Shown here: piece after piece, positions 32,111 to 45,375 of the stretch
Layout of the letters: every line of letters begins with the position of its first letter
How positions within the stretch are numbered: position 1 is the stretch's first letter
Assembly: GCA_036768485.1 (NCBI GenBank)
Contig: JAVLUZ010000154.1
Span: 36,441,769 to 36,505,768, forward strand
Reading direction: 5' to 3'
DNA from: Mermis nigrescens
Lineage: Eukaryota; Nematoda; Enoplea; Mermithida; Mermithidae
DNA length: 64,000 bases
Translations under genes and position numbers: made by a program
Notes under the pieces: generated by a model
The model's database searches: none
What the model was told of the DNA's origin: nothing
Seen by the model: only the letters and a program-made list of their open reading frames with translations

Positions 32111-32935
32111 TATGAATTCCCAAATAGGTAATAAACGAAAAACTCACCTTTTAGAAACTCAATCCCACAATAAGAGGGGAAACTCCGCGCCGCTGCACCC
32201 TACGCTGTATAAATCATCTCAGTATAGTGATTTTCTAATTGAACGACGCACGGAAGGGTGTCGCCTCTCTTACAAGACGTCGTTTAACCGTGACGTTACG
32301 TTAAGACTACGCTTTTCGTGCGTCTGTATTGAAGAGCGTGGGTTTCTGGTTAGAATTTTCCGGTTTTTTTGGTGGCAATCGTGAGGGAATTGGAATTTTT
32401 TAATAATTTTTTTAATGTGCAGGCATGAATTGCCCATTATGCCCATATTTCTTTTCTGGATCCGATTAATAAACCCAATGTAACAATGTTTTTTCTTCGT
32501 TTTTTCAATGGATATATCGGTTCACGAAAGCAAATTTGGCCGGATAGCCATAAAATTTATTCCACTAGAAAGAGGAACTTTTTCTTAAAACTCTTTTTTA
32601 AGTCTTATAGTTGAGTAATAAGAAAGTTATTTAGTTTTAGAAAGTAGGTACCTGACCGCACGTATTAATATGCCCCCTAAGTAGTATAGCATGGTTCCCT
32701 AGCCCGCAACACAAAGTATATACGGCTATGTTTTGTGTTATAGGCCCCGCCCACCCTATTGCAGAGAAGCAGCCTCTCCTGTGTTATAGCATAGGCGGAG
32801 AAGCGCCCTGCTTGCGCCCTGGCTTTTTTCTCAGGGCGCAATGATGAGGCATGGGGGAAGGGAAGCTGAGCAAGCCAATGAATTAACATACATATTGTAA
32901 GGTGCATACCTACACGATTAAAAAATTGGCAAAAC

Positions 32936-33125
32936 AGTGTGCGTAATATCGCGCATTGTCGAAGCATTTTTTTGCAGCTGGTAATATCGCGCGTGGAATT
33001 TATAATATCGCGCATTGGCAGCGAATTTATAATAAGCGCATTGGCGAAGCAACGTAGACTGAAACACGATGAATACAATAAGCGCATTGGCAGCGAATTT
33101 ATAATAAGCGCATTTTGTTGACTGG
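32936..33125. repeat. Subterminal iterated motif, left arm
   Basis: Alternating units of GCGCATTGGCAGCGAATTT, AATATCGCGCATTG and GCGCATTGGCGAAGCA. The last recurs alone at 34143. Such arrays could bind element proteins at the ends; this is inference. Frames read across it are repetitive and not credible genes. Confidence 0.75.
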
Positions 33126-33296
33126 AGAAGCAATAGCATTAAATTGATAATTCTCGCGCCTGCCCAAATTTTTCGAACGCGTCCAGCCCACTTTAAGTGC
33201 ATGTGATGAAATATTTATTTATAGTCTAGGTCCACGGTCTACTGCATCTTAATCATTCAAGGGGTAATTTCCAAGCCGTTTTGGACTTGCAAAATC

Positions 33297-33304
33297 TATA
33301 AATA
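33297..33304 (+). promoter_or_regulatory. TATAAATA box, zinc-binding protein gene, left
   Basis: TATAAATA begins 42 nt before the ATG at 33339; the mirror copy is at 44485-44492. Confidence 0.7.
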
Positions 33305-33338
33305 CTAATAATTCTTTCATTAATTTAAATCTTCAAAA

Positions 33339-33662
33339 ATGGAGGAAAATATGGAATTGAGAAAACGTCCTTTTACGGATGAGGAGAAGAAACCTTATGG
33401 GCGGACAATACGACCGCCTATTGAGTTATGTGGGAGGAATCTGGAGCGTCCCATGTACCCTCTCATGATACATTTATGTCATTTTTGTCAAAAAAATTCG
33501 TCTGAAAAAGACGTTTTTGAAACAAATTCAGGAAAATGGTATTTTAACGTTCAAATGTGCCCAAGATGTTGTGAATATAATAGGGCATCCCAGGAGGCTG
33601 GGAACATGGTGATTAAGAAATATGTTGCTCAACAGGTTGAAGAAGCGAAAAATGGCTTGTAA
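33339..33662 (+). CDS. Small CxxC/CxxC protein, left copy (107 aa)
   Basis: I do not recognise the family. The protein has a charged N-terminus (residues 1-20), then two Cys pairs, CHFC (about residues 47-50) and CPRC (about 74-77), some 23 residues apart. This suggests one zinc ribbon or treble-clef finger. A helical Lys/Glu/Gln-rich C-terminus follows. The right-arm copy is identical in protein sequence. It is the outermost gene of the arm, and the 108-residue gene follows 42 nt after its stop. Next to a TBP homologue, a zinc ribbon could suggest a transcription factor, but no general-factor signature is clear. Confidence 0.75.
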   Translation: MEENMELRKRPFTDEEKKPYGRTIRPPIELCGRNLERPMYPLMIHLCHFCQKNSSEKDVFETNSGKWYFNVQMCPRCCEYNRASQEAGNMVIKKYVAQQVEEAKNGL

Positions 33663-33665
33663 AGT

Positions 33666-33673
33666 TATAAATA
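33666..33673 (+). promoter_or_regulatory. TATAAATA box, 108-residue gene, left
   Basis: TATAAATA begins 39 nt before the ATG at 33705, between the two small genes; the mirror copy is at 44116-44123. Confidence 0.7.
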
Positions 33674-33704
33674 TGAGCGATATCTGACAAAAAGTATCTA
33701 CAAA

Positions 33705-34031
33705 ATGAGTTCTCAAGGTGAATTGAGTTTTAATCATTTTGTGACCAAGTTGGCTGATAAAGCCAGTACAAGGTACATCACTTCTCACGATGTACAAAGC
33801 ATTGGCTCCTGCTTTTGGAGTTTGCTTTCTGAAGAATACAAAGAAAATCGCAAAAGCCTCGATAATCGGAAAGCATTTTGGAATTTTGCGCTTTATGTGA
33901 AACGATGCCTAATAAATCGTGAAATCGAGCCTATTTTAGATTTATGGCAAGATTTCGATCAAAATGGCAAAAATACATGGGAAAGCATGTATGAAAATTG
34001 CCTAAACGAGCGAGTTAGTCGTGTATTATAA
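33705..34031 (+). CDS. Unknown 108-residue protein, left copy
   Basis: No recognised domain. Composition and spacing of hydrophobic residues predict an all-helical, soluble protein; aromatic clusters are SCFWSLLSEEY and KAFWNFALYVKR. There is no signal peptide or membrane segment. The right-arm copy differs at one residue (Val to Ala in SHDVQS). It has its own TATA box and so is probably transcribed separately from the preceding gene. It points toward the polymerase-like gene on the other strand, whose stop is about 155 nt away. Confidence 0.7.
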   Translation: MSSQGELSFNHFVTKLADKASTRYITSHDVQSIGSCFWSLLSEEYKENRKSLDNRKAFWNFALYVKRCLINREIEPILDLWQDFDQNGKNTWESMYENCLNERVSRVL

Positions 34032-34187
34032 ACGATTTGATTGAATTGAAAAATAAAAAAAACCAAAAAAATTAGCGCCTCTCAGAGGCATCATGTGTGT
34101 GTGTAAAAAAATGGTGGTTGCCCACCACTAATAACCTGCTAGCGCATTGGCGAAGCAATTTGCTTACAGCATTGATGCCAGCCAAGC

Positions 34188-34961
34188 CTAGGGCTTCTCA
34201 GGCATTTTTGTTATTAGATCATAATGATTATTAGCAGCGTGCAAGTGAATTACTTTCTCAGCCTCAGGCCCTTGAAAGTACAAAATATTGCCATGATAAA
34301 CTTTTATTTGGTAGTCTGGCACCAGACTCTTTTGAATTTTGTCTATAGCTTCAAGTCCATATTTCTCGTCATTAATGCTGAGATCAGCTTTGTGCATCAG
34401 CTTTAATGCTAGTTGCTTTTGCATAGTATGCCTTGCTTTGTCACCTTTTCGAACAGATTCCCACTTAGGGCAGTTGTCTAGCTTTGCTATACCTGTTACA
34501 AGAGCTCTGGCTAATGATAAATTATCGTTTGATGTGATTTTAATATATGCCCCACCATTTTTGCAAAAGTCACCTACTTCAAAGTCATAACCGGTACCCA
34601 TTTGGGGTTTTTTGTCAACCAGAACTACTTTAAAAGTCAAGTCTTCACTTAAACAAAAGTCTTTTTGGGACTGAGCCACCTTTTCTATAATACTCAAAAC
34701 CTTGTCAGCATTTATGTATTGACGTTGAGTGAATGGTACTAACACAGGCGTATAGAGGCTTGGCTGTCTAATTTCAATGCCTACCATACTGTCATAAGGA
34801 CACCCACGCAACATCAGGTTAATAGCTTTTTCAAAAATCTGTTCGAAAATCTCAAAGAGATTAGGGCATTTCTTGAAACGCAACAAAAATGCCTTAGCGG
34901 TTGTCCTAAACCTACGAACAGAAATGTGTGGGAGCTCATGTACTTCAAAGTACTGCTCCAT
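34188..34961 (-). CDS. Polinton DNA polymerase B N-terminal region only, left copy
   Basis: From the ATG at 34961 the product has 257 residues. It resembles the region that precedes the exonuclease/polymerase domains in Polinton protein-primed polymerases. Recognisable parts are QPSLYTPVLVPFTQRQ (early middle), SNDNLSLARALVTGIAK (centre) and HYDLITKMP near the end. In full-length relatives the protein continues past that last motif into a Cys-rich part and the catalytic domains; here it stops within three residues. The right copy ends identically, so the truncation predates the arm duplication. It cannot synthesise DNA. It may be a decayed gene or a retained accessory protein. The integrase gene is divergent, 89 bp away. 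Confidence 0.8.
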   Translation of the reverse strand: MEQYFEVHELPHISVRRFRTTAKAFLLRFKKCPNLFEIFEQIFEKAINLMLRGCPYDSMVGIEIRQPSLYTPVLVPFTQRQYINADKVLSIIEKVAQSQKDFCLSEDLTFKVVLVDKKPQMGTGYDFEVGDFCKNGGAYIKITSNDNLSLARALVTGIAKLDNCPKWESVRKGDKARHTMQKQLALKLMHKADLSINDEKYGLEAIDKIQKSLVPDYQIKVYHGNILYFQGPEAEKVIHLHAANNHYDLITKMPEKP

Positions 34962-34994
34962 TTTCAAATTAAAACTACATACTTACTAATCGTT

Positions 34995-35002
34995 ATTTAT
35001 AG
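34995..35002 (-). promoter_or_regulatory. TATAAATA box, polymerase-like gene, left
   Basis: On the minus strand TATAAATA starts 41 nt before the ATG at 34961. The right-arm counterpart (42788-42795) has mutated to TATCAATA. Confidence 0.7.
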
Positions 35003-35016
35003 ACAGAATGATGTTA

Positions 35017-35024
35017 ATAAATAG
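35017..35024 (+). promoter_or_regulatory. AATAAATA variant box, integrase gene, left
   Basis: AATAAATA begins 34 nt before the integrase ATG at 35051. A second TATA-like string, TATAAATG at 35035, is only 16 nt from the ATG and looks too close. This is the one gene without a perfect box at the usual distance. Confidence 0.45.
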
Positions 35025-35050
35025 ATGGACTGTTATAAAATGTTTAAAAA

Positions 35051-36109
35051 ATGGAAAAAGTGTTAAAGCACATATATTACGACCCTAAAACGGGATATAG
35101 TAGCGTGGAACAGCTATATGAGAGGGCTAAAAAAGTAAAGCCAAAAATAGACCGGTCCTACGTGAAACAATGGTTGGAAAAGCAGCCCACCTACACGTTA
35201 CACAAACCCGCCCTCAAGAGGTATTCTCGAAATAAAGTGTTAGTAAGTAGCATTGATGAGCAATGGCAATGTGATATTGTAGATCTGCAGTCCTTAAGCA
35301 AGTTTAACGATAATTTTAAGTATCTCTTGAATTGCATAGACATATTTTCAAAGTACGCATGGTCCATCCCTTTGAAATCTAAAAGTTCAAAAGATGTTCT
35401 GACCGCTTTTCAAAGCATTTTGCATTCATCAAATCGAAAACCGTACAAGCTGCAAACAGATGCAGGGACCGAATTTACAAACAAAGAATTTCAAAAATTT
35501 CTTAAATCTGAATCTATCGATTTTTTCACGACTAAAAGCGAAATGAAGGCTAGTATAGTTGAACGTTTTAATCGCACGCTTAAAGAACGTATGTGGCGGT
35601 ACTTCACCAAGAGCAATTCATATAAATTTATTGACGTATTACCCGACTTGATGAAAAACTATAATCACTCCAAGCATCGTACGATAGGTACCTCGCCAGC
35701 TAATGTTACCGTTAAAAATGAGACGGAAATTTTAAATAAAGCATTTAGGATTGATAAACAGAACGTTGTTTTTAAATTTAATATTGGTGATAAAGTCCGA
35801 CTGAGTAAAGTTAAGCGCGCTTTTGAAAAAGGATTTTGGCCCAACTGGACAGAGGAGTTTTTCATAATTAAGGAGAGATTTGCTCGCACACCGCCCGTTT
35901 ATGTTTTAGAAGACCAAATGGGCGAAAAAGTTGAGGGTATTTTTTACGAACCTGAACTGCAAAAAATTGATATATCCTCGGATGACTTGTTTATTGTTGA
36001 AAAGATTTTGAAAACGCGTAAGAAAGGCAATAAAACTGATTATTTAGTGCGCTGGCGAGGGTACCCAGAAAAGTTTGATTCCTGGGTCTCAAACCTGATA
36101 AAGTTATAA
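35051..36109 (+). CDS. Polinton integrase with chromodomain, left copy (352 aa)
   Basis: A retroviral-type (rve, c-int) DDE integrase that would insert element DNA into the nuclear genome. The catalytic triad is visible: D75 in WQCDIVD, D137 in LQTDAGTEF, E171 in KASIVERFNRT. A helical N-terminal part (1-60) precedes it. An SH3-like DNA-binding part (about 243-300, starting FNIGDKVRLSKVKR) follows. A chromodomain (about 314-350) has FIVEKIL, YLVRWRGYP and W345 in cage positions; chromodomains bind methylated histone H3 and can steer insertion. Length and order match Polinton integrases. This left copy has no visible damage. It converges on the TBP homologue across a 22-bp tandem repeat. Confidence 0.93.
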   Translation: MEKVLKHIYYDPKTGYSSVEQLYERAKKVKPKIDRSYVKQWLEKQPTYTLHKPALKRYSRNKVLVSSIDEQWQCDIVDLQSLSKFNDNFKYLLNCIDIFSKYAWSIPLKSKSSKDVLTAFQSILHSSNRKPYKLQTDAGTEFTNKEFQKFLKSESIDFFTTKSEMKASIVERFNRTLKERMWRYFTKSNSYKFIDVLPDLMKNYNHSKHRTIGTSPANVTVKNETEILNKAFRIDKQNVVFKFNIGDKVRLSKVKRAFEKGFWPNWTEEFFIIKERFARTPPVYVLEDQMGEKVEGIFYEPELQKIDISSDDLFIVEKILKTRKKGNKTDYLVRWRGYPEKFDSWVSNLIKL

Positions 36110-36133
36110 ACGTCTAAAGGCCAGATTTTTACA

Positions 36134-36418
36134 CTTTGCAATATTTTTTGTAAAGTTTGGGATATTTTTTGTAAAGTTTGGAAATTTTTTTGTAAAATTT
36201 GGAATATTTTTTGTAAAGTTTGGAATTTTTTTTGTAAAATTTGGAATATTTTTTGTAAAGTTTGGAATTAATTTTACGTGCTTAAGCATAGTACTTTTGC
36301 AAAGTTTGGAATATTTTTTGTAAAATTTGGAATATTTTTTGTAAAGTTTGGAATATTTTTTGTAAAGTTTGGAATATTTTTTGTAAAGTTTGGAAATTTT
36401 TTGTAAAATTTGGAATAT
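36134..36418. repeat. 22-bp tandem repeat between integrase and TBP genes, left
   Basis: Twelve units of TTTGTAAAGTTTGGAATATTTT type lie between the 3' ends of the two convergent genes, broken once near 36270 by about 35 bp. The right arm has only four units (41562-41655), so the array expanded or shrank after the arms were duplicated. Confidence 0.9.
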
Positions 36419-36936
36419 TACGTATCTAAGTTGCATTTCTCAAGCATTGTTGAAACTATTTTATATGCTATATGCAACTCATGCTTGTGTTTTGCACCTG
36501 TGAGAATCATTTTTCCACTTGTAAAGAGTAAAAAGGTCACTTTTCTAAATTTGTATACTAATCCGGGAAATAATTCTACTTCATACATGCATTTCCTTTT
36601 CACCAGCTCATAAAACTTACAAAGATCAATGCGGAATCCCAAGTTAGCTGAGCCAACAAACAGCACTGGCTTTATTTTCAACATGAAATTCTCCATCTTC
36701 AGTATATCAATGAATGTCTTTATCGTATTTTCGCCTTCTTGCGTAGTTTTAGCTCCAACACATACAATTTTACCCGACTTGAAAATCAGCAATGTTGCCT
36801 GAGGTAATCGAAATATGATGCCTGGAAATTTTGAGCGATTGTATTGCGCAGTATTTGGCAATTTAGGGTAGATATCATCTAGATTCAGCGTATTTGGTAG
36901 TGCTGTAGTCAGCACAATGTTCTGTATAGTTACCAT
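36418..36936 (-). CDS. TATA-binding-protein homologue, left copy (172 aa)
   Basis: The protein consists of the two direct repeats of the TBP saddle. Repeat 1 (about 1-83) contains FPGIIFRLPQATLLIF and SGKIVCVGAK; repeat 2 (about 84-172) contains ELFPGLVYKF and SGKMILTGAK. All four phenylalanines that TBP wedges into the minor groove have counterparts: F37, F52, F123, F138. The loop between each pair is two residues shorter than in eukaryotic TBP. There is no long N-terminal extension. TBP nucleates transcription complexes at TATA boxes in the nucleus. Giant DNA viruses have such homologues, but TBP is not in the usual Polinton gene set as I know it. The start is the ATG 36 nt after a TATAAATA box. 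Confidence 0.92.
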   Translation of the reverse strand: MVTIQNIVLTTALPNTLNLDDIYPKLPNTAQYNRSKFPGIIFRLPQATLLIFKSGKIVCVGAKTTQEGENTIKTFIDILKMENFMLKIKPVLFVGSANLGFRIDLCKFYELVKRKCMYEVELFPGLVYKFRKVTFLLFTSGKMILTGAKHKHELHIAYKIVSTMLEKCNLDT

Positions 36937-36940
36937 TTTC

Positions 36941-36948
36941 TATAAATA
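36941..36948 (+). promoter_or_regulatory. TATAAATA box, ATPase gene start
   Basis: TATAAATA on the plus strand begins 41 nt before the ATG at 36982 that opens the ATPase remnant. With the box at 36965 it forms a back-to-back promoter shared with the TBP homologue. Confidence 0.65.
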
Positions 36949-36964
36949 CTTCATGATAAACTTA

Positions 36965-36972
36965 TATTTATA
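36965..36972 (-). promoter_or_regulatory. TATAAATA box, TBP homologue, left
   Basis: On the minus strand TATAAATA starts 36 nt before the ATG at 36936; the mirror copy is at 41007-41014. Confidence 0.7.
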
Positions 36973-36981
36973 CATATAACC

Positions 36982-37149
36982 ATGATGTTCCAACATCCTT
37001 TCACCTGCCTTGTTTCAGGACCACCAAATCGTTTTGATTTTAATATCAATCAAGTGTGCTCTTTTTTCGATTAATCGCGTGACAAACGTTGTTTTGCCAG
37101 ACATGGTTGGTCCTGAAACAAGGCAGGTGGAAAGGATGTTGGGACATCA
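36982..37149. pseudogene. Folded-back 5' fragment of the packaging ATPase gene
   Basis: On the plus strand the frame from 36982 opens MMFQHPFTCLVSGP, the start of Polinton/adenovirus-type FtsK-HerA packaging ATPases, then becomes nonsense at 37024. On the minus strand the same start recurs from 37149, carries one extra base, and continues into the Walker A loop GPTMSGKTT (37087-37113) before a stop. The two starts are inverted arms of about 40 bp around an 85-bp loop: this is the turning point of the palindrome. The ATPase would pump element DNA into capsids; this fragment cannot function. Confidence 0.82.
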
Positions 37150-39837
37150 TCTTAGGTAGCGCGTTAGCGCGTACCTATAATATGCTCGGGTACCCCCAAC
37201 ACCTGTGCACCCCTACAGCTATAACGGGACACTTCTGGAAGGTGCGGATTTTTTTAAAAGAAAGATAATAAAAAATTTCGCTGCCCGTGTTTTTTGTTTC
37301 TCGAAACTCAAAATTCACTGTGTAAAGAAGGTGTAAAGTTTTTGTGTAACGTTATAACATAGGACAGATTTTGGGACCTTTTTACTGCGGCATGTGGACA
37401 ACTGAGTATTGATGACTCGAAGGATTGAACAGGATAGGATAATAGAGGGATGAATTCTACAGATGGCACTTTTTTTGTTTTTTTGAAATTCACATTAGTT
37501 ATCGAATGGCAGTGTAAAGAGTGCGAAATTCTGGGGGTGAAAAAGCACTTTTGGTCGAGTTTTCAACCTGCCTATGTCCGATACTAACTCGGTTATGAGT
37601 TTTTTAAAATGTTTTCTGACAGAAATGTAGAGCGGATCAAGGGCTACATTCTGCACATAAGCAAAGTCTTCTATGCTCTATGGTGAGTTAGATCCTGGGG
37701 TTTAAAGTTTACACTCTGACGGATGGTGTAAAAACGGATTTTAAGTAAGATTTCTCTGCCAAATTTTTCCGCTTATGAGTCAGTGTTAATAGGAGACAGC
37801 ATTAATAAAGTGCCTCTCAGGGGCTAAAGCATCGCAGCAAACCGCATTCAAAAAAACGCAATATTGAGTTATTTATGGGGGTGTAAAGTTCGAAATCAGA
37901 GGTAAAAAATGGGCGAAAAACACGTTTTTTCCGAAGTTTGATTGATAAATCATACCAAATAATTTTTGCAACAGAATTTTGGCACACAGGAATGTACTAC
38001 GATTCAAAAGCTACAAATTGTACCAAATCGAATTTCTTTAAACTCAATGGGAGTTCGGTACGGAATTTTAAAGTTTACAGTGTTCTAAATGATGGAAAAT
38101 ACGTTTTTGTTGCGTTTTTTGTTCGCCACTTTCTCCGTCCAGAAGTCGGGATAAGTCTAATAGAATAAAAATAAAGTGCTTTATATCGGGTGCATGTCAA
38201 AGCGAATTGTCTATACATTAATATTTAGCCAGTGTAAAGTCAAAAATTTGGAGTTTAAAATGCGTTTCTGTCTTGTTGTTTCTGCCTGCTTCTCCGGTTA
38301 CGATTCAGGGACACGTTTATCAAGTCTAGAAATGGACCAGGAACCAAATTTGATATGCCAGTCTGGCGCATATGTTTACACTCTGCGGTGTTGTAAAGTA
38401 GTTTACACCAATTGTTAGTTTGCCCATAGAACATTATGTAGACTTAATTTTTTCATAAATATTAATCGTAATATCGGAACAATATCAAAATTACGAATCT
38501 GACTAAAATCTTCTGTTACACTAGGTGTTTACATGAAGTTTACACTACATATGTATTTATCTTCGTTTTTGAGCATTCCAGAAACCTAATTTTTTCCTGG
38601 AGTCTAGAAGTTTTCAAAGGATCAAATGTGAGACGTCAACAGTGATGTAAAGTAGTTTACACTCATTGTTTATATGTCCTCAGACCATTGTAGAGACATA
38701 ATTTTTTCATGGCAATGTTGATCATAATATCCGAGTAATTTTTTACACTGCATGTTAGCCTTTGTTCTAGAGCATTGCACAAACCGAAATTTTTTCCTGA
38801 GATATAAAAATGTACAGGGAATGAAATATATACGTCAGTTGAGCGCGCTTGCTTACACTCAACAGTATTGCAAAGTGGTTTAAACCTAATGTTTATTGTC
38901 TTTAAAACATTATGGAGACTCATTTTTCCATAAATGTTGAAAGTAATATCGGAGCAATAATCAAAATTACGAATCCGACTAAAATATTCTTTACGCTATG
39001 TGTTCGTGTAAATTTTACATTACGTGTTAACCTTAATTCGATAGACTTGCAGAGACTTTGTAACTGAAGTCAAGAAATTTTCAATGATTCATATGTGAGA
39101 CATCAATTAAGTGAGTTTGTTCACTCCTCAAAAGTAATCTAAAGTGATTTAAAAATTATGTTCAAGTGTCCTTAGATCATTGAAGAGATGTAATTTTGTC
39201 TTAAATGGGTTGCATTAAAGTTAAATCCTTCTTAGCCGTGTTTATAATATGTTTCACAAAATCTTGCACATGGAGAGCTATCGTTTAATTGATGTAAATT
39301 GCCTGCAAAAGTGGTTTAAAATGAATCCAGCAATCACACTACTGTGCACAGAAGTCGACAAAGATATGCAGCTTTATTGTAATCATGTACATTAATAAGC
39401 CGTAAACTGTTAGTATTCTCTACACCTAGTAGTTGTGTAAAGTTTGCACTATTCATTTGTTGCTAATATGTAGTCTATACTACAAATTTATTTTACTACC
39501 AAATCAAAGCGTTAGTGTTCCTTACATTTGATATTTGCGTGAAGTTTTTGAATTTTTGCCGAAAAACTTTGCTTTCTAATGTACCAACATCCCGCCTTTT
39601 CCATTTTCTTAAAGTTTAAAATCTTTTATAATTCTCTTAATAATTTAATGGTAGGTTTTAACTTTAAATTTCTCTTGAGTTTACAACTCTGGCTTAGCAA
39701 GCTCATTTTTCAAAACTTTTTCATAGTGATCAGATTAGTCGCGTTTAGTTTGGAATTGGTGGACGGTCGTTATTTTATTACTCGGCTTAAATAAACCAAG
39801 TGACTATCTTTTGATTATTTTCTTTATCGCAAATTCA

Positions 39838-39920
39838 AACACCCAATTTTCAATTTGAAAATTGACCCAATTTTCAATTTGAAAATTGATCCAATTTTCA
39901 ATTTGAAAATTGAAAATTGG
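39838..39920. repeat. Tandem short palindromes in R copy 2
   Basis: Three copies of CAATTTTCAATTTGAAAATTG, each self-complementary, at a period near 24 bp. They are absent from the matching part of R copy 1. Confidence 0.85.
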
Positions 39921-40231
39921 GTGTTTTCAATTTCAAAAGTCACAACACATTGTGCTTGTGTATTGATTGAGTGAGGATTTGCAATGTGAATCCGTTGGTT
40001 AAATATTTGTGCTTGATTATAAGTGAACTGCACATTAAGAAGAAATAACTTAATGGAGTTTTAATTTGAAAATGGATGGTGTCAATAAGGTTGTCTTGTT
40101 TAAAAAGGATAATGCTGATGTTAAGAACAATATTGTTTTCCGCGTTCTTGGACTGTTGTCATTATTGTGGCATGTTACTGATTGTGTTTACTGACTGATG
40201 TACTGAAATCACGCTAATTAAAAGTAGTGTA

Positions 40232-40996
40232 CTAGCAAAGAAAAATGCTCCGATGGAACAAAAAAGATGAATATACTTGGAATTGTGGATTATTATGGAT
40301 GTAAAAGGAGGGGACTAGGAAAAATCTACCTAAAGTCGGAAAATCTGCTAAAAATCACACTTTCTCTAAGCAACGCAAAAAATCGATGTATATTCTGCGG
40401 CCTCTAAAAAAGTGTCTTTCTTAAATAATGTTCGAAGTTTCAGATAAGAGTGTATAAACGAAATCTATCAAGGTTAATTTTCTAAATTGCTGGCACCTGA
40501 TTGATAGAAAACTAAGAGGTATTGTATTTAAAGTTGTTTTATTTTGTTATGAGCATTATAGCAAGCAAAGCAGGAGCCGATTGATTAGTGCACACAATCG
40601 TTTCGGGTATGCTAGTGTATCTACATTTAGTCTGTTTCAAGTCAACTTACGCGTTTCCTACTGTTTTAAACCAACCATGTCTTCAATTGTCTTCGATGTT
40701 TGCTATTTCATTCAATTGGCTTGAAAGACTGTTAGTTTACTTAATATCATTTCCCATAGCTACTGCATGGCTAACGTGCTGCTGTTTCAATCATTGTTAT
40801 GGTTGAATATTTATTTTAATCTGTTGGCCGCAGAATATACATCGATTTTTTGCGTTGCTTAGAGAAAGTGTGATTTTTAGCAGATTTTCCGACTTTAGGT
40901 AGATTTTTCCTAGTCCCCTCCTTTTACATCCATAATAATCCACAATTCCAAGTATATTCATCTTTTTTGTTCCATCGGAGCATTTTTCTTTGCTAG
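40232..40996. repeat. Palindromic 3' module of R copy 2
   Basis: The same inverted ends as at 24229-25035, but the central part runs the other way, as expected after recombination between the inverted ends. The module's right end is the right end of R. Confidence 0.8.
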
Positions 40997-41006
40997 TGGT
41001 TATATG

Positions 41007-41014
41007 TATAAATA
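41007..41014 (+). promoter_or_regulatory. TATAAATA box, TBP homologue, right
   Basis: Begins 36 nt before the ATG at 41043. An opposed TATAAATA at 41031-41038 (minus strand) now points into the inserted repeat, the orphan promoter of the second ATPase start. Confidence 0.7.
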
Positions 41015-41042
41015 TAAGTTTATCATGAAGTATTTATAGAAA

Positions 41043-41561
41043 ATGGTAACTATACAGAACATTGTGCTGACTACAGCACTACCAAATACGCTGAATCTAG
41101 ATGATATCTACCCTAAATTGCCAAATACTGCGCAATACAATCGCTCAAAATTTCCAGGCATCATATTTCGATTACCTCAGGCAACATTGCTGATTTTCAA
41201 GTCGGGTAAAATTGTATGTGTTGGAGCTAAAACTACGCAAGAAGGCGAAAATACGATAAAGACATTCATTGATATACTGAAGATGGAGAATTTCATGTTG
41301 AAAATAAAGCCAGCGCTGTTTGTTGGCTCAGCTTACTTGGGATTCCGCATTGATCTTTGTAAGTTTTATGAGCTGGTGAAAAGGAAATGCATGTATGAAG
41401 TAGAATTATTTCCCGGATTAGTATACAAATTTAGAAAAGTGACTTTTTTACTCTTTACAAGTGGAAAAATGATTCTCACAGGTGCAAAACACAAGCATGA
41501 GTTGCATATAGCATATAAAATAGTTTCAACAATGCTTGAGAAATGCAACTTAGATACGTAA
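41043..41561 (+). CDS. TATA-binding-protein homologue, right copy (172 aa)
   Basis: It has the same length and two-repeat structure as the left copy, with only two visible residue changes: V91A and N98Y at the start of repeat 2. The four minor-groove phenylalanines and both SGK...GAK motifs are intact. It is transcribed away from the inserted repeat toward the integrase gene. Two intact copies in an otherwise reduced element suggest either youth or use. Confidence 0.92.
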   Translation: MVTIQNIVLTTALPNTLNLDDIYPKLPNTAQYNRSKFPGIIFRLPQATLLIFKSGKIVCVGAKTTQEGENTIKTFIDILKMENFMLKIKPALFVGSAYLGFRIDLCKFYELVKRKCMYEVELFPGLVYKFRKVTFLLFTSGKMILTGAKHKHELHIAYKIVSTMLEKCNLDT

Positions 41562-41655
41562 TTTTCCAAATTTTACAAAAAAATTTCCAAACTTTACAAA
41601 AAATATTCCAAACTTTACAAAAAATATTCCAAACTTTACAAAAAATATTGCAAAG
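41562..41655. repeat. 22-bp tandem repeat, right arm
   Basis: Four units of the array that has twelve units at 36134-36418. Confidence 0.88.
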
Positions 41656-41679
41656 TGTAAAAATCTGGCCTTTAGACGT

Positions 41680-42738
41680 TTATAACTTTATCAGGTTTGA
41701 GACCCAGGAATCAAACTTTTCTGGGTACCCTCGCCAGCGCACTAAATAATCAGTTTTATTGCCTTTCTTACGCGTTTTCAAAATCTTTTCAACAATAAAC
41801 AAGTCATCCGAGGATATATCAATTTTTTGCAGTTCAGGTTCGTAAAAAATACCCTCAACTTTTTCGCCCATTTGGTCTTCTAAAACATAAACGGGCGGTC
41901 TGCGAGCAAATCTCTCCTTAATTATGAAAAACTCCTCTGTCCAGTTGGGCCAAAATCCTTTTTCAAAAGCGCGCTTAACTTTACTCAGTCGGACTTTATC
42001 ACCAATATTAAATTTAAAAACAACGTTCTGTTTATCAATCCTAAATGCTTTATTTAAAATTTCCGTCTCATTTTTAACGGTAACATTAGCTGGCGAGGTA
42101 CCTATCGTACGATGCTTGGAGTGATTATAGTTTTTCATCAAGTCGGGTAATACGTCAATAAATTTATATGAATTGCTCTTGGTGAAGTACCGCCACATAC
42201 GTTCTTTAAGCGTGCGATTAAAACGTTCAACTATACTAGCCTTCATTTCGCTTTTAGTCGTGAAAAAATCGATAGATTCAGATTTAAGAAATTTTTGAAA
42301 TTCTTTGTTTGTAAATTCGGTCCCTGCATCTGTTTGCAGCTTGTACGGTTTTCGATTTGATGAATGCAAAATGCTTTGAAAAGCGGTCAGAACATCTTTT
42401 GAACTTTTAGATTTCAAAGGGATGGACCGTGCGTACTTTGAAAATATGTCTATGCAATTCAAGAGATACTTAAAATTATCGTTAAACTTGCTTAAGGACT
42501 GCAGATCTACAATATCACATTGCCATTGCTCATCAATGCTACTTACTAACTCTTTATTTCGAGAATACCTCTTGAGGGCGGGTTTGTGTAACGTGTAGGT
42601 GGTCTGCTTTTCCAACCATTGTTTCACGTAGGACCGGTCTATTTTTGGCTTTACTTTTTTAGCCCTCTCATATAGCTGTTCCACGCTACTATATCCCATT
42701 TTAGGGTCGTAATATATGTGCTTTAACACTTTTTCCAT
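41680..42738 (-). CDS. Polinton integrase with chromodomain, right copy (352 aa)
   Basis: Full length with the D75, D137, E171 triad and chromodomain. It differs from the left copy at five visible positions: T14M, P46T, V63E, W104R and T280R. W104 lies in the KYAW stretch of the catalytic core, an aromatic position I expect to be conserved, so this copy may be impaired. The changes suggest the left copy is nearer the ancestral sequence. An AATAAATA variant box lies upstream at 42766-42773. Confidence 0.9.
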   Translation of the reverse strand: MEKVLKHIYYDPKMGYSSVEQLYERAKKVKPKIDRSYVKQWLEKQTTYTLHKPALKRYSRNKELVSSIDEQWQCDIVDLQSLSKFNDNFKYLLNCIDIFSKYARSIPLKSKSSKDVLTAFQSILHSSNRKPYKLQTDAGTEFTNKEFQKFLKSESIDFFTTKSEMKASIVERFNRTLKERMWRYFTKSNSYKFIDVLPDLMKNYNHSKHRTIGTSPANVTVKNETEILNKAFRIDKQNVVFKFNIGDKVRLSKVKRAFEKGFWPNWTEEFFIIKERFARRPPVYVLEDQMGEKVEGIFYEPELQKIDISSDDLFIVEKILKTRKKGNKTDYLVRWRGYPEKFDSWVSNLIKL

Positions 42739-42787
42739 TTTTTAAACATTTTATAACAGTCCATCTATTTATTAACATCATTCTGTC

Positions 42788-42795
42788 TATCAATA
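42788..42795 (+). promoter_or_regulatory. Mutated TATA box (TATCAATA), polymerase-like gene, right
   Basis: It occupies the position of the TATAAATA at 34995-35002 in the other arm, 40 nt before the ATG at 42828, with one A-to-C change. Confidence 0.55.
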
Positions 42796-42827
42796 ACGAT
42801 TAGTAAGTATGTAGTTTTAATTTGAAA

Positions 42828-43601
42828 ATGGAGCAGTACTTTGAAGTACACGAGCTCCCACACATTTCTGTTCGTAGGTTTAGGACAACCGCAAAGGCAT
42901 TTTTGTTGCGTTTCAAGAAATGCCCTAATCTCTTTGAGATTTTCGAACAGATTTTTGAAAAAGCTATTAACCTGATGTTGCGTGGGTGTCCTTATGACAG
43001 TATGGTAGGCATTGAAATTAGACAGCCAAGCCTCTATACGCCTGTGTTAGTACCATTCACTCAACGTCAATACATAAATGCTGACAAGGTTTTGAGTATT
43101 ATAGAAAAGGTGGCTCAGTCCCAAAAAGACTTTTGTTTAAGTGAAGACTTGACTTTTAAAGTAGTTCTGGTTGACAAAAAACCCCAAATGGGTACCGGTT
43201 ATGACTTTGAAGTAGGTGACTTTTGCAAAAATGGTGGGGCATATATTAAAATCACATCAAACGATAATTTATCATTAGCCAGAGCTCTTGTAACAGGTAT
43301 AGCAAAGCTAGACAGCTGCCCTAAGTGGGAATCTGTTCGAAAAAGTGACAAAGCAAGGCATACTATGCAAAAGCAACTAGCATTAAAGCTGATGCACAAA
43401 GCTGATCTCAGCATTAATGACGAGAAATATGGACTTGAAGCTATAGACAAAATTCAAAAGAGTCTGGTGCCAGACTACCAAATAAAAGTTTATCATGGCA
43501 ATATTTTGTACTTTCAAGGGCCTGAGGCTGAGAAAGTAATTCACTTGCACGCTGCTAATAATCATTATGATCTAATAACAAAAATGCCTGAGAAGCCCTA
43601 G
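42828..43601 (+). CDS. Polinton DNA polymerase B N-terminal region only, right copy
   Basis: 257 residues from the ATG, ending right after HYDLITKMP as in the left arm, without exonuclease or polymerase domains. Two residues differ from the left copy (Asn to Ser in AKLDNCPKW; Gly to Ser in VRKGDK). Its TATA box carries a mutation. The stop is followed by a GCGCATTGGC-type motif and a GT-rich block that also occur, inverted, in the left arm. Confidence 0.78.
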   Translation: MEQYFEVHELPHISVRRFRTTAKAFLLRFKKCPNLFEIFEQIFEKAINLMLRGCPYDSMVGIEIRQPSLYTPVLVPFTQRQYINADKVLSIIEKVAQSQKDFCLSEDLTFKVVLVDKKPQMGTGYDFEVGDFCKNGGAYIKITSNDNLSLARALVTGIAKLDSCPKWESVRKSDKARHTMQKQLALKLMHKADLSINDEKYGLEAIDKIQKSLVPDYQIKVYHGNILYFQGPEAEKVIHLHAANNHYDLITKMPEKP

Positions 43602-43757
43602 GCTTGGCTGGCATCAATGCTGTAAGCAAATTGCTTCGCCAATGCGCTAGCAGGTTATTAGTGGTGGGCAACCACCATTTTTTTACACACACACATGATG
43701 CCTCTGAGAGGCGCTAATTTTTTTGGTTTTTTTTATTTTTCAATTCAATCAAATCGT

Positions 43758-44084
43758 TTATAATACACGACTAACTCGCTCGTTTAGGCAATTTTCATAC
43801 ATGCTTTCCCATGTATTTTTGCCATTTTGATCGAAGTCTTGCCATAAATCTAAAATAGGCTCGATTTCACGATTTATTAGGCATCGTTTCACATAAAGCG
43901 CAAAATTCCAAAATGCTTTCCGATTATCGAGGCTTTTGCGATTTTCTTTGTATTCTTCAGAAAGCAAACTCCAAAAGCAGGAGCCAATGCTTTGTGCATC
44001 GTGAGAAGTGATGTACCTTGTACTGGCTTTATCAGCCAACTTGGTCACAAAATGATTAAAACTCAATTCACCTTGAGAACTCAT
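43758..44084 (-). CDS. Unknown 108-residue protein, right copy
   Basis: As the left copy at 33705-34031, with one visible residue change (SHDAQS). No recognisable domain; predicted helical. Its TATAAATA box is at 44116-44123, 39 nt upstream. Confidence 0.7.
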   Translation of the reverse strand: MSSQGELSFNHFVTKLADKASTRYITSHDAQSIGSCFWSLLSEEYKENRKSLDNRKAFWNFALYVKRCLINREIEPILDLWQDFDQNGKNTWESMYENCLNERVSRVL

Positions 44085-44115
44085 TTTGTAGATACTTTTT
44101 GTCAGATATCGCTCA

Positions 44116-44123
44116 TATTTATA
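44116..44123 (-). promoter_or_regulatory. TATAAATA box, 108-residue gene, right
   Basis: Mirror of 33666-33673; starts 39 nt before the ATG at 44084. Confidence 0.7.
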
Positions 44124-44126
44124 ACT

Positions 44127-44450
44127 TTACAAGCCATTTTTCGCTTCTTCAACCTGTTGAGCAACATATTTCTTAATCACCATGTTCCCAGCCTCCTGGG
44201 ATGCCCTATTATATTCACAACATCTTGGGCACATTTGAACGTTAAAATACCATTTTCCTGAATTTGTTTCAAAAACGTCTTTTTCAGACGAATTTTTTTG
44301 ACAAAAATGACATAAATGTATCATGAGAGGGTACATGGGACGCTCCAGATTCCTCCCACATAACTCAATAGGCGGTCGTATTGTCCGCCCATAAGGTTTC
44401 TTCTCCTCATCCGTAAAAGGACGTTTTCTCAATTCCATATTTTCCTCCAT
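44127..44450 (-). CDS. Small CxxC/CxxC protein, right copy (107 aa)
   Basis: Protein sequence is the same as the left copy at 33339-33662, with both Cys pairs intact. It is the outermost gene of the right arm. The complete lack of change, where other genes differ, may reflect constraint, recent conversion between arms or chance. Confidence 0.75.
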   Translation of the reverse strand: MEENMELRKRPFTDEEKKPYGRTIRPPIELCGRNLERPMYPLMIHLCHFCQKNSSEKDVFETNSGKWYFNVQMCPRCCEYNRASQEAGNMVIKKYVAQQVEEAKNGL

Positions 44451-44484
44451 TTTTGAAGATTTAAATTAATGAAAGAATTATTAG

Positions 44485-44492
44485 TATTTATA
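44485..44492 (-). promoter_or_regulatory. TATAAATA box, zinc-binding protein gene, right
   Basis: Mirror of 33297-33304; starts 42 nt before the ATG at 44450. Confidence 0.7.
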
Positions 44493-44663
44493 GATTTTGC
44501 AAGTCCAAAACGGCTTGGAAATTACCCCTTGAATGATTAAGATGCAGTAGACCGTGGACCTAGACTATAAATAAATATTTCATCACATGCACTTAAAGTG
44601 GGCTGGACGCGTTCGAAAAATTTGGGCAGGCGCGAGAATTATCAATTTAATGCTATTGCTTCT

Positions 44664-44853
44664 CCAGTCAACAAAATGCGCTTATTATAAATTCGCTGCC
44701 AATGCGCTTATTGTATTCATCGTGTTTCAGTCTACGTTGCTTCGCCAATGCGCTTATTATAAATTCGCTGCCAATGCGCGATATTATAAATTCCACGCGC
44801 GATATTACCAGCTGCAAAAAAATGCTTCGACAATGCGCGATATTACGCACACT
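44664..44853. repeat. Subterminal iterated motif, right arm
   Basis: Inverse of the GCGCATTGGC-type array at 32936-33125 with the same unit order. Confidence 0.75.
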
Positions 44854-45375
44854 GTTTTGCCAATTTTTTAATCGTGTAGGTATGCACCTTACAATATGTA
44901 TGTTAATTCATTGGCTTGCTCAGCTTCCCCTTCCCCATGCCTCATCATTGCGCCCTGAGAAAAAAGCCAGGGCGCAAGCAGGGCGCTTCTCCGCCTATGC
45001 TATAACACAGGAGAGGCTGCTTCTCTGCAATAGGGTGGGCGGGGCCTATAACACAAAACATAGCCGTATATACTTTGTGTTGCGGGCTAGGGAACCATGC
45101 TATACTACTCCCCTATAACGTTCGAATATTATAACGTTGGGCTATACGTGATAGAGGCTAATTTAAGCAATAGGCTGAATCCATACGCACTTGCGTGCCT
45201 AACGTAAGTATGCATTTATCCTATCTACGTGTATGCTATTTAGCGCGTTTTTAGGTACGCATTTAATACAGCGCATAGCTAGACTCACGGAAAAAATATG
45301 GCTACAAGACTCAATATATCAATCCACCCACCAAGAAAAATCTCATTCGACCCACCGGGTCACCGGAGCCCAGCG

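Follow-up and report, generated by a model that had tools for sequence, protein, structure and literature searches.

How does a mobile element come to consist of its own left half, written twice and facing itself? The question is raised by a 64,000-nucleotide stretch of contig JAVLUZ010000154.1 of the nematode Mermis nigrescens (called here the window; positions are counted from its first letter), in which a Polinton-like element at 32680-45109 forms a palindrome. The palindrome is real and not a matter of chance, and it holds, as an earlier note on this DNA had claimed, two sets of the same five genes; all ten frames are open. On balance it probably derives from a small Polinton-like family, as a defective fold-back product that formed first and was then integrated. 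Its parts are:

32674..32679, no strand: left copy of the target-site duplication (TSD), CCCCTA
32680..37023, forward: left arm, which spans the parental element's left half, from the terminus as far as the start of the ATPase gene
37020..37023, forward: switch microhomology ACCA, with its partner TGGT at 37108-37111
37024..37107, reverse: loop, which continues the right arm and contains the coding sequence for the ATPase Walker A motif
37108..37149, reverse: right-arm stub (ATPase start), between the loop and the Helitron
37150..40996, forward: Helitron of 3847 bp, TC...CTAG, inserted between A and T
40997..45109, reverse: right arm, an inverted copy of the left half
45110..45115, no strand: right copy of the TSD, CCCCTA

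The two inverted arms, compared over 32680-36225 and 41564-45109, are 99.4% identical (21 mismatches over 3546 nt, gap-free), and beyond this block, across the gene for a TATA-binding-protein-like product (TBP) and up to the start of the ATPase gene, the identity is 98.7%. Fourteen of the 21 mismatches lie within 32680-36109, that is, outside a tandem-repeat block which is unequal between the arms (about 308 bp on the left vs 119 bp on the right). Is this one insertion or two? AG...CT termini, terminal inverted repeats (TIRs) and a perfect 6-bp TSD are all present, as in Polintons/Mavericks, and they bear out the view of a single insertion taken in the earlier note; random 6-bp flanks would match with a chance of about 1/4096. 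The mirror symmetry stops exactly at the element termini, with the TSD next to them, and the host flanks beyond differ, so a fold-back made within the chromosome is unlikely. The span of 12430 bp comes down to 8583 bp when the Helitron is subtracted, in agreement with the palindrome of about 8.6 kb described before. The Helitron itself, rightly seen as a later insertion, interrupts the right arm only; its ends follow the TC...CTRR pattern between A and T, seven of seven other examined copies follow an A, and its 5' part matches at least 39 further places in the genome. Close to its 3' end there is a 172-nt exact inverted repeat (40231-40402 and 40826-40997).

The inverted halves do meet within the opening codons of the ATPase gene, across a loop of 84 nt (previously put at about 85 bp), and the fold is an exact 4-nt microhomology, ACCA against TGGT. 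The parental sequence at this place runs ...CAGGACCAACCAAGTCTGG...GATTTGGTGGTGCTTTGC..., and the palindrome fuses GGACCA to CCAAAT with ACCA in common; it is possible that TGGTGGT paired with ACCAACCA, leaving one bulged base. Read from the right arm, the loop translates as GPTMSGKT, where the parents have GPTKSGKT. A 40-mer across the fold junction has a single occurrence in 524 Mb with up to three mismatches allowed (control 0).

Where, then, are the parents? Ordinary elements of the same family are still present elsewhere in the genome. Two 40-mer probes, one for TBP (up to three mismatches) and one for the 108-aa gene (g108), matched 56 sites in 55 loci and 69 sites, respectively. Parental order was scored for 40 of 1115 candidates, and it runs straight through the fold and loop in 38 of 38 other scored copies, the loop sequence itself being read in 18 copies (of 29 fetched). 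A TIR probe found 182 sites genome-wide, of which 100 were used for pairing and gave 27 TIR pairs: 17 with one TBP (9487-10437 bp), the present locus, and nine others (3.2-11.7 kb) that match neither the TBP nor the g108 probe. Two TIR pairs, C161:1265340-1276976 and C312:118847-130483, are equally long (11.7 kb) and have the family ends and no match to either probe. In the parents the loop position belongs to a gene of 220 aa that matches Pox_A32 weakly; in the parent at C61:10.74 Mb this ATPase reaches 1.1e-4 (22.2 bits vs a cut-off of 22.8) with Walker A present. The same parent has adenain-like frames (2.9e-5 and 2.5e-5) and a double-jelly-roll-like capsid match of 0.019, below the cut-off. 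Peptidase_C5 in the parents stands at 2.9e-5 and 24.2 bits, over a cut-off of 21.3, which identifies an adenain-like protease. C48b, the sole other copy with comparable, matching flanks, has a 6-bp TSD, TTTGTA. A further family copy (C634:311367-312655) shows a short tandem duplication over the TBP-ATPase junction. The search proposed in the earlier note, for full-length parents continuing past the ATPase start, has thus found them in the same genome, as the snap-back explanation expects, both by gene order and by TIR pairs of parental length.

Could the palindrome itself be mobile? The earlier note had offered two ideas, a defective snap-back genome fixed in a host chromosome and a lineage that propagates as a palindrome. 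The former is the better supported, by the parents past the ATPase start, the one insertion and the one TSD; the latter was rejected for want of support. Several loci with the same fold point and different TSDs were not found, the junction 40-mer being unique, and with the left-half probes (56 TBP and 69 g108 sites) an inverted gene pair within 20 kb was seen at only one other locus, on C255, although these probes miss diverged copies, the left TBP of C255 among them. This second near-palindrome spans 9110 bp (C255:290631-299740) and contains g108 on both strands. Its left arm is 90.9% identical to the present element and continues through the loop region, and the switch to the reverse strand comes about 120 nt further on, at a TTGCA microhomology, which leaves a loop of about 120 nt; this fold lies some 100-130 bp beyond the present one. 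The arms of C255 are diverged (four mismatches in the TBP 40-mer, none in the g108 40-mer, several in the TIR; the right arm is read for its smaller part), and the locus may have arisen by fusion of two insertions or may be of great age. Both the present element and C255 fold near-symmetrically in the ATPase gene start. A pair on C48 was rejected as a palindrome: these are two complete inverted elements which lie some 18 kb from each other, and both have ends of their own.

How would such a molecule arise? In the proposed fold-back, a linear element would have been under replication when the 3' end of the DNA switched strand at ACCA/TGGT across 84 nt, at the first codons of the ATPase gene, after which the left half would be copied back to the terminus. 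The product would be a linear palindrome with two left ends, in which the terminal repeat, the integrase gene and the TBP gene are each present twice and a complete ATPase, capsid-like or protease gene is lacking. The integrase of the element would insert it once, as it would an ordinary element, and leave the 6-bp duplication; the Helitron would enter the right arm later, and the arms would diverge by mutation and probably by some conversion from other copies. We infer that the switch happened within one molecule, during replication, and with a polymerase supplied by another element. Is there a sign of common descent in the arms? Both ends carry a 37-nt terminal variant which is exact at three sites, namely the two ends and C45:464017 (four further sites have three mismatches), against 182 sites for the TIR probe next to it, so two unrelated parents are unlikely and both arms would come from one parent lineage. 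Within 32680-34990 the arms also have in common most of their differences from C37, the nearest copy.

Several observations weigh against a simple fold-back. The left arm reads T at both 33793 and 33953, as do 7 of 11 copies, where the right arm reads C, as do 4 of 11; one TBP site is G on the left (22 of 29 copies) and A on the right (7 of 29), and 32857 and 32859 likewise differ between the arms. At all five sites the left-arm allele is that of other sublineages and the right arm agrees with C37, so separate decay of a single sequence in the two arms does not suffice as an account. Twelve changes are peculiar to the right arm, and 11 of these occur in no copy read at the site (the remaining one, 35091, is present in 2 of 30 copies), and the left integrase is identical to that of C37 (0 differences in 1059). 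Loop and stub together (37024-37149, 126 bp) hold five changes, denser than in the arms; one is common to C69 and C366, and the stub by itself differs from the parents by two changes, one of which is a 1-bp insertion. C255, whose flanks (AGTATG vs CATGCC) form no TSD, indicates that a near-palindrome is possible without one, and the listed parental pieces hold no polymerase-sized frame (largest 437 aa). A significant excess of right-arm changes was considered and fell after polarising (5 own changes on the left vs 12 on the right, p 0.14, assuming a C37-like ancestor). On their own the five left-arm alleles would suggest different parents, a case that is weakened by the common terminal variant and the common C37 differences. 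The allele pattern would be accounted for either if another copy had converted the left arm or if a resident element had undergone templated repair.

Repair after integration would require a full-length element, now the right arm, to have been resident between the CCCCTA flanks and to have suffered a break in its right half, which was fixed with another element's left arm as the template, the copying starting in TIR homology and closing at ACCA. This accounts for the single TSD and the common terminal variant, for a left integrase identical to that of a living copy next to foreign left-arm alleles, and for the greater change seen in right arm, loop and stub. It offers no reason why the arms should meet within 84 nt of mirror symmetry, and most C37 differences are common to the two arms; we consider it unlikely. 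Did two different extrachromosomal copies instead unite head to head, through a template switch or through end joining, before a single integration? The alleles that differ at five sites, the right-arm loop allele found also in C69 and C366, and the one TSD would all follow, but a terminal variant exact at so few sites is present on both ends, and the near-symmetry would require aligned partners, which leaves such joining distinctly unlikely.

Two separate chromosomal insertions in opposite orientation could also have become one through a deletion of the intervening DNA. Neighbours of this kind exist, as the inverted full copies on C48 show, and C255, with no TSD and diverged arms, resembles the outcome; at the present locus the outer CCCCTA match would then be a matter of chance and the terminal variant favours one parent, and we hold this origin to be very improbable. 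What of an assembly or library artefact? Palindromic reads are a known type of artefact, and the palindrome is seen in assembled sequence only (the 48.8-Mb contig C61 of a 524-Mb, 860-contig assembly). The arms, however, are distinguished by single-nucleotide differences, repeat length and one Helitron, so a single molecule was not read twice; the symmetry breaks off where the element does, next to a TSD, a 4-nt microhomology forms the junction and the contig is long, and an artefact appears extremely improbable.

What does each arm of the palindrome carry? The genes and repeats of the left arm, with their second copies on the right, are:

33339..33662, forward: 107-aa gene with only sub-threshold Pfam matches; second copy 44127-44450, reverse
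33705..34031, forward: 108-aa gene (g108); second copy 43758-44084, reverse
34188..34961, reverse: 257-aa gene, a free-standing relative of the N-terminal part of PolB; second copy 42828-43601, forward
35051..36109, forward: integrase, 352 aa, rve and chromodomain; second copy 41680-42738, reverse
36126..36417: tandem repeats of about 21 bp, longer in this arm; right arm 41562-41663
36418..36936, reverse: TATA-binding-protein-like gene, 172 aa; second copy 41043-41561, forward

Comparison of the two copies shows the change V30A for the 108-aa protein, two residue differences each for the 257-aa protein and TBP, and five for the integrase. The integrase matches Pfam rve (8.4e-14) and Chromo (4.6e-9), both above the cut-off and as in Polintons/Mavericks, and has 3912 relatives in a protein search (best 73%). 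The TBP-like protein matches Pfam TBP at 6.7e-43, with PDB 1mp9 as the top solved structure (1.3e-30); just three relatives were recognised in the protein search, at 31-36% identity. A search of viral contigs gave no relative of the integrase or TBP, and the PHROGs search gave nothing useful. For the 257-aa protein, a match to the PolB N-terminal region was obtained in each of the 12 PolB loci examined (best 8.5e-65, 39%), and a relationship to I-MsoI (2e-6) was dropped because this match is far better. The 'LCLARA' of those PolBs has a Cys, which may be part of an OTU-like motif; the 257-aa protein has Ser there.

Which polymerase would have copied the element? The 257-aa relative of the PolB N-terminus is all that was found of a protein-primed DNA polymerase B, and as the parental pieces read show no polymerase domain, the family is better called Polinton-like and defective than a complete Polinton. 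A stand-alone PolB N-terminal relative, in a family where no polymerase domain was seen, hints at possible helper dependence. PolB places are numerous in the genome (80 of 1060 candidates scored), and none of the 80 is within 25 kb of the 100 listed TIRs (of 182), the nearest being 61 kb away. Together with the lack of a polymerase-sized frame in the parental pieces, this weakens the idea, raised in the earlier note, of protein priming by the element itself. The integrase of two PolB-bearing families has 65-70% DNA identity to the present integrase; TIRs common to the family and the PolB elements were looked for and not found. That the TBP family is a satellite which uses the polymerase of full Polintons and repeatedly sheds fold-backs at the ATPase start seems to us quite improbable; if true, it would provide a heritable record of defective-interfering genomes. 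The two palindromes, of 8.6 and 9.1 kb, are near the parental 9.5-10.4 kb, as expected if only near-full-length molecules get packaged or survive.

How does this element compare with known systems? Left-end palindromic (snap-back, symmetric) defective genomes are known from adenoviruses, and the replication of Polintons has been inferred mainly from gene content. An integrated fold-back with readable parents, a microhomology and an integration scar would be physical evidence of the mode of DNA copying, and the palindrome suggests that the integrase accepts a two-left-ended molecule. A compact TBP family with no polymerase domain in the copies read, amid full Polintons, also makes helper dependence testable. 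The snap-back kind is thus already familiar, and the Polinton case appears new within the literature searched, where no palindromic Polinton was found; the coverage was partial, and unpublished status is not implied. The rve integrase with its chromodomain, the AG...CT ends, the TIRs and the 6-bp TSD are those of Polintons/Mavericks, and so is, in the parents, the adenain-like protease; the weak A32-like ATPase and double-jelly-roll matches of the parents, both below their cut-offs, would be candidates for the same. Unlike Polintons/Mavericks, the parents measure 9.5-10.4 kb, carry a TBP gene and have no polymerase domain in the pieces read, and the present locus is the left half only, twice. 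The insert is like a Helitron (TC...CTAG, between A and T) and is a passenger only. TATA-binding proteins are reported to be sporadic in mirusvirus-like elements of Cymbomonas, which are described as lacking DNA polymerase, packaging-ATPase and double-jelly-roll genes (PMC10675990). In the present family TBP stands between the integrase and ATPase genes. With defective adenovirus genomes the element has in common the inverted copies of one end, the short loop and the loss of the remainder; it differs from them in being chromosomal, with a TSD, and in belonging to a family without a seen polymerase domain.

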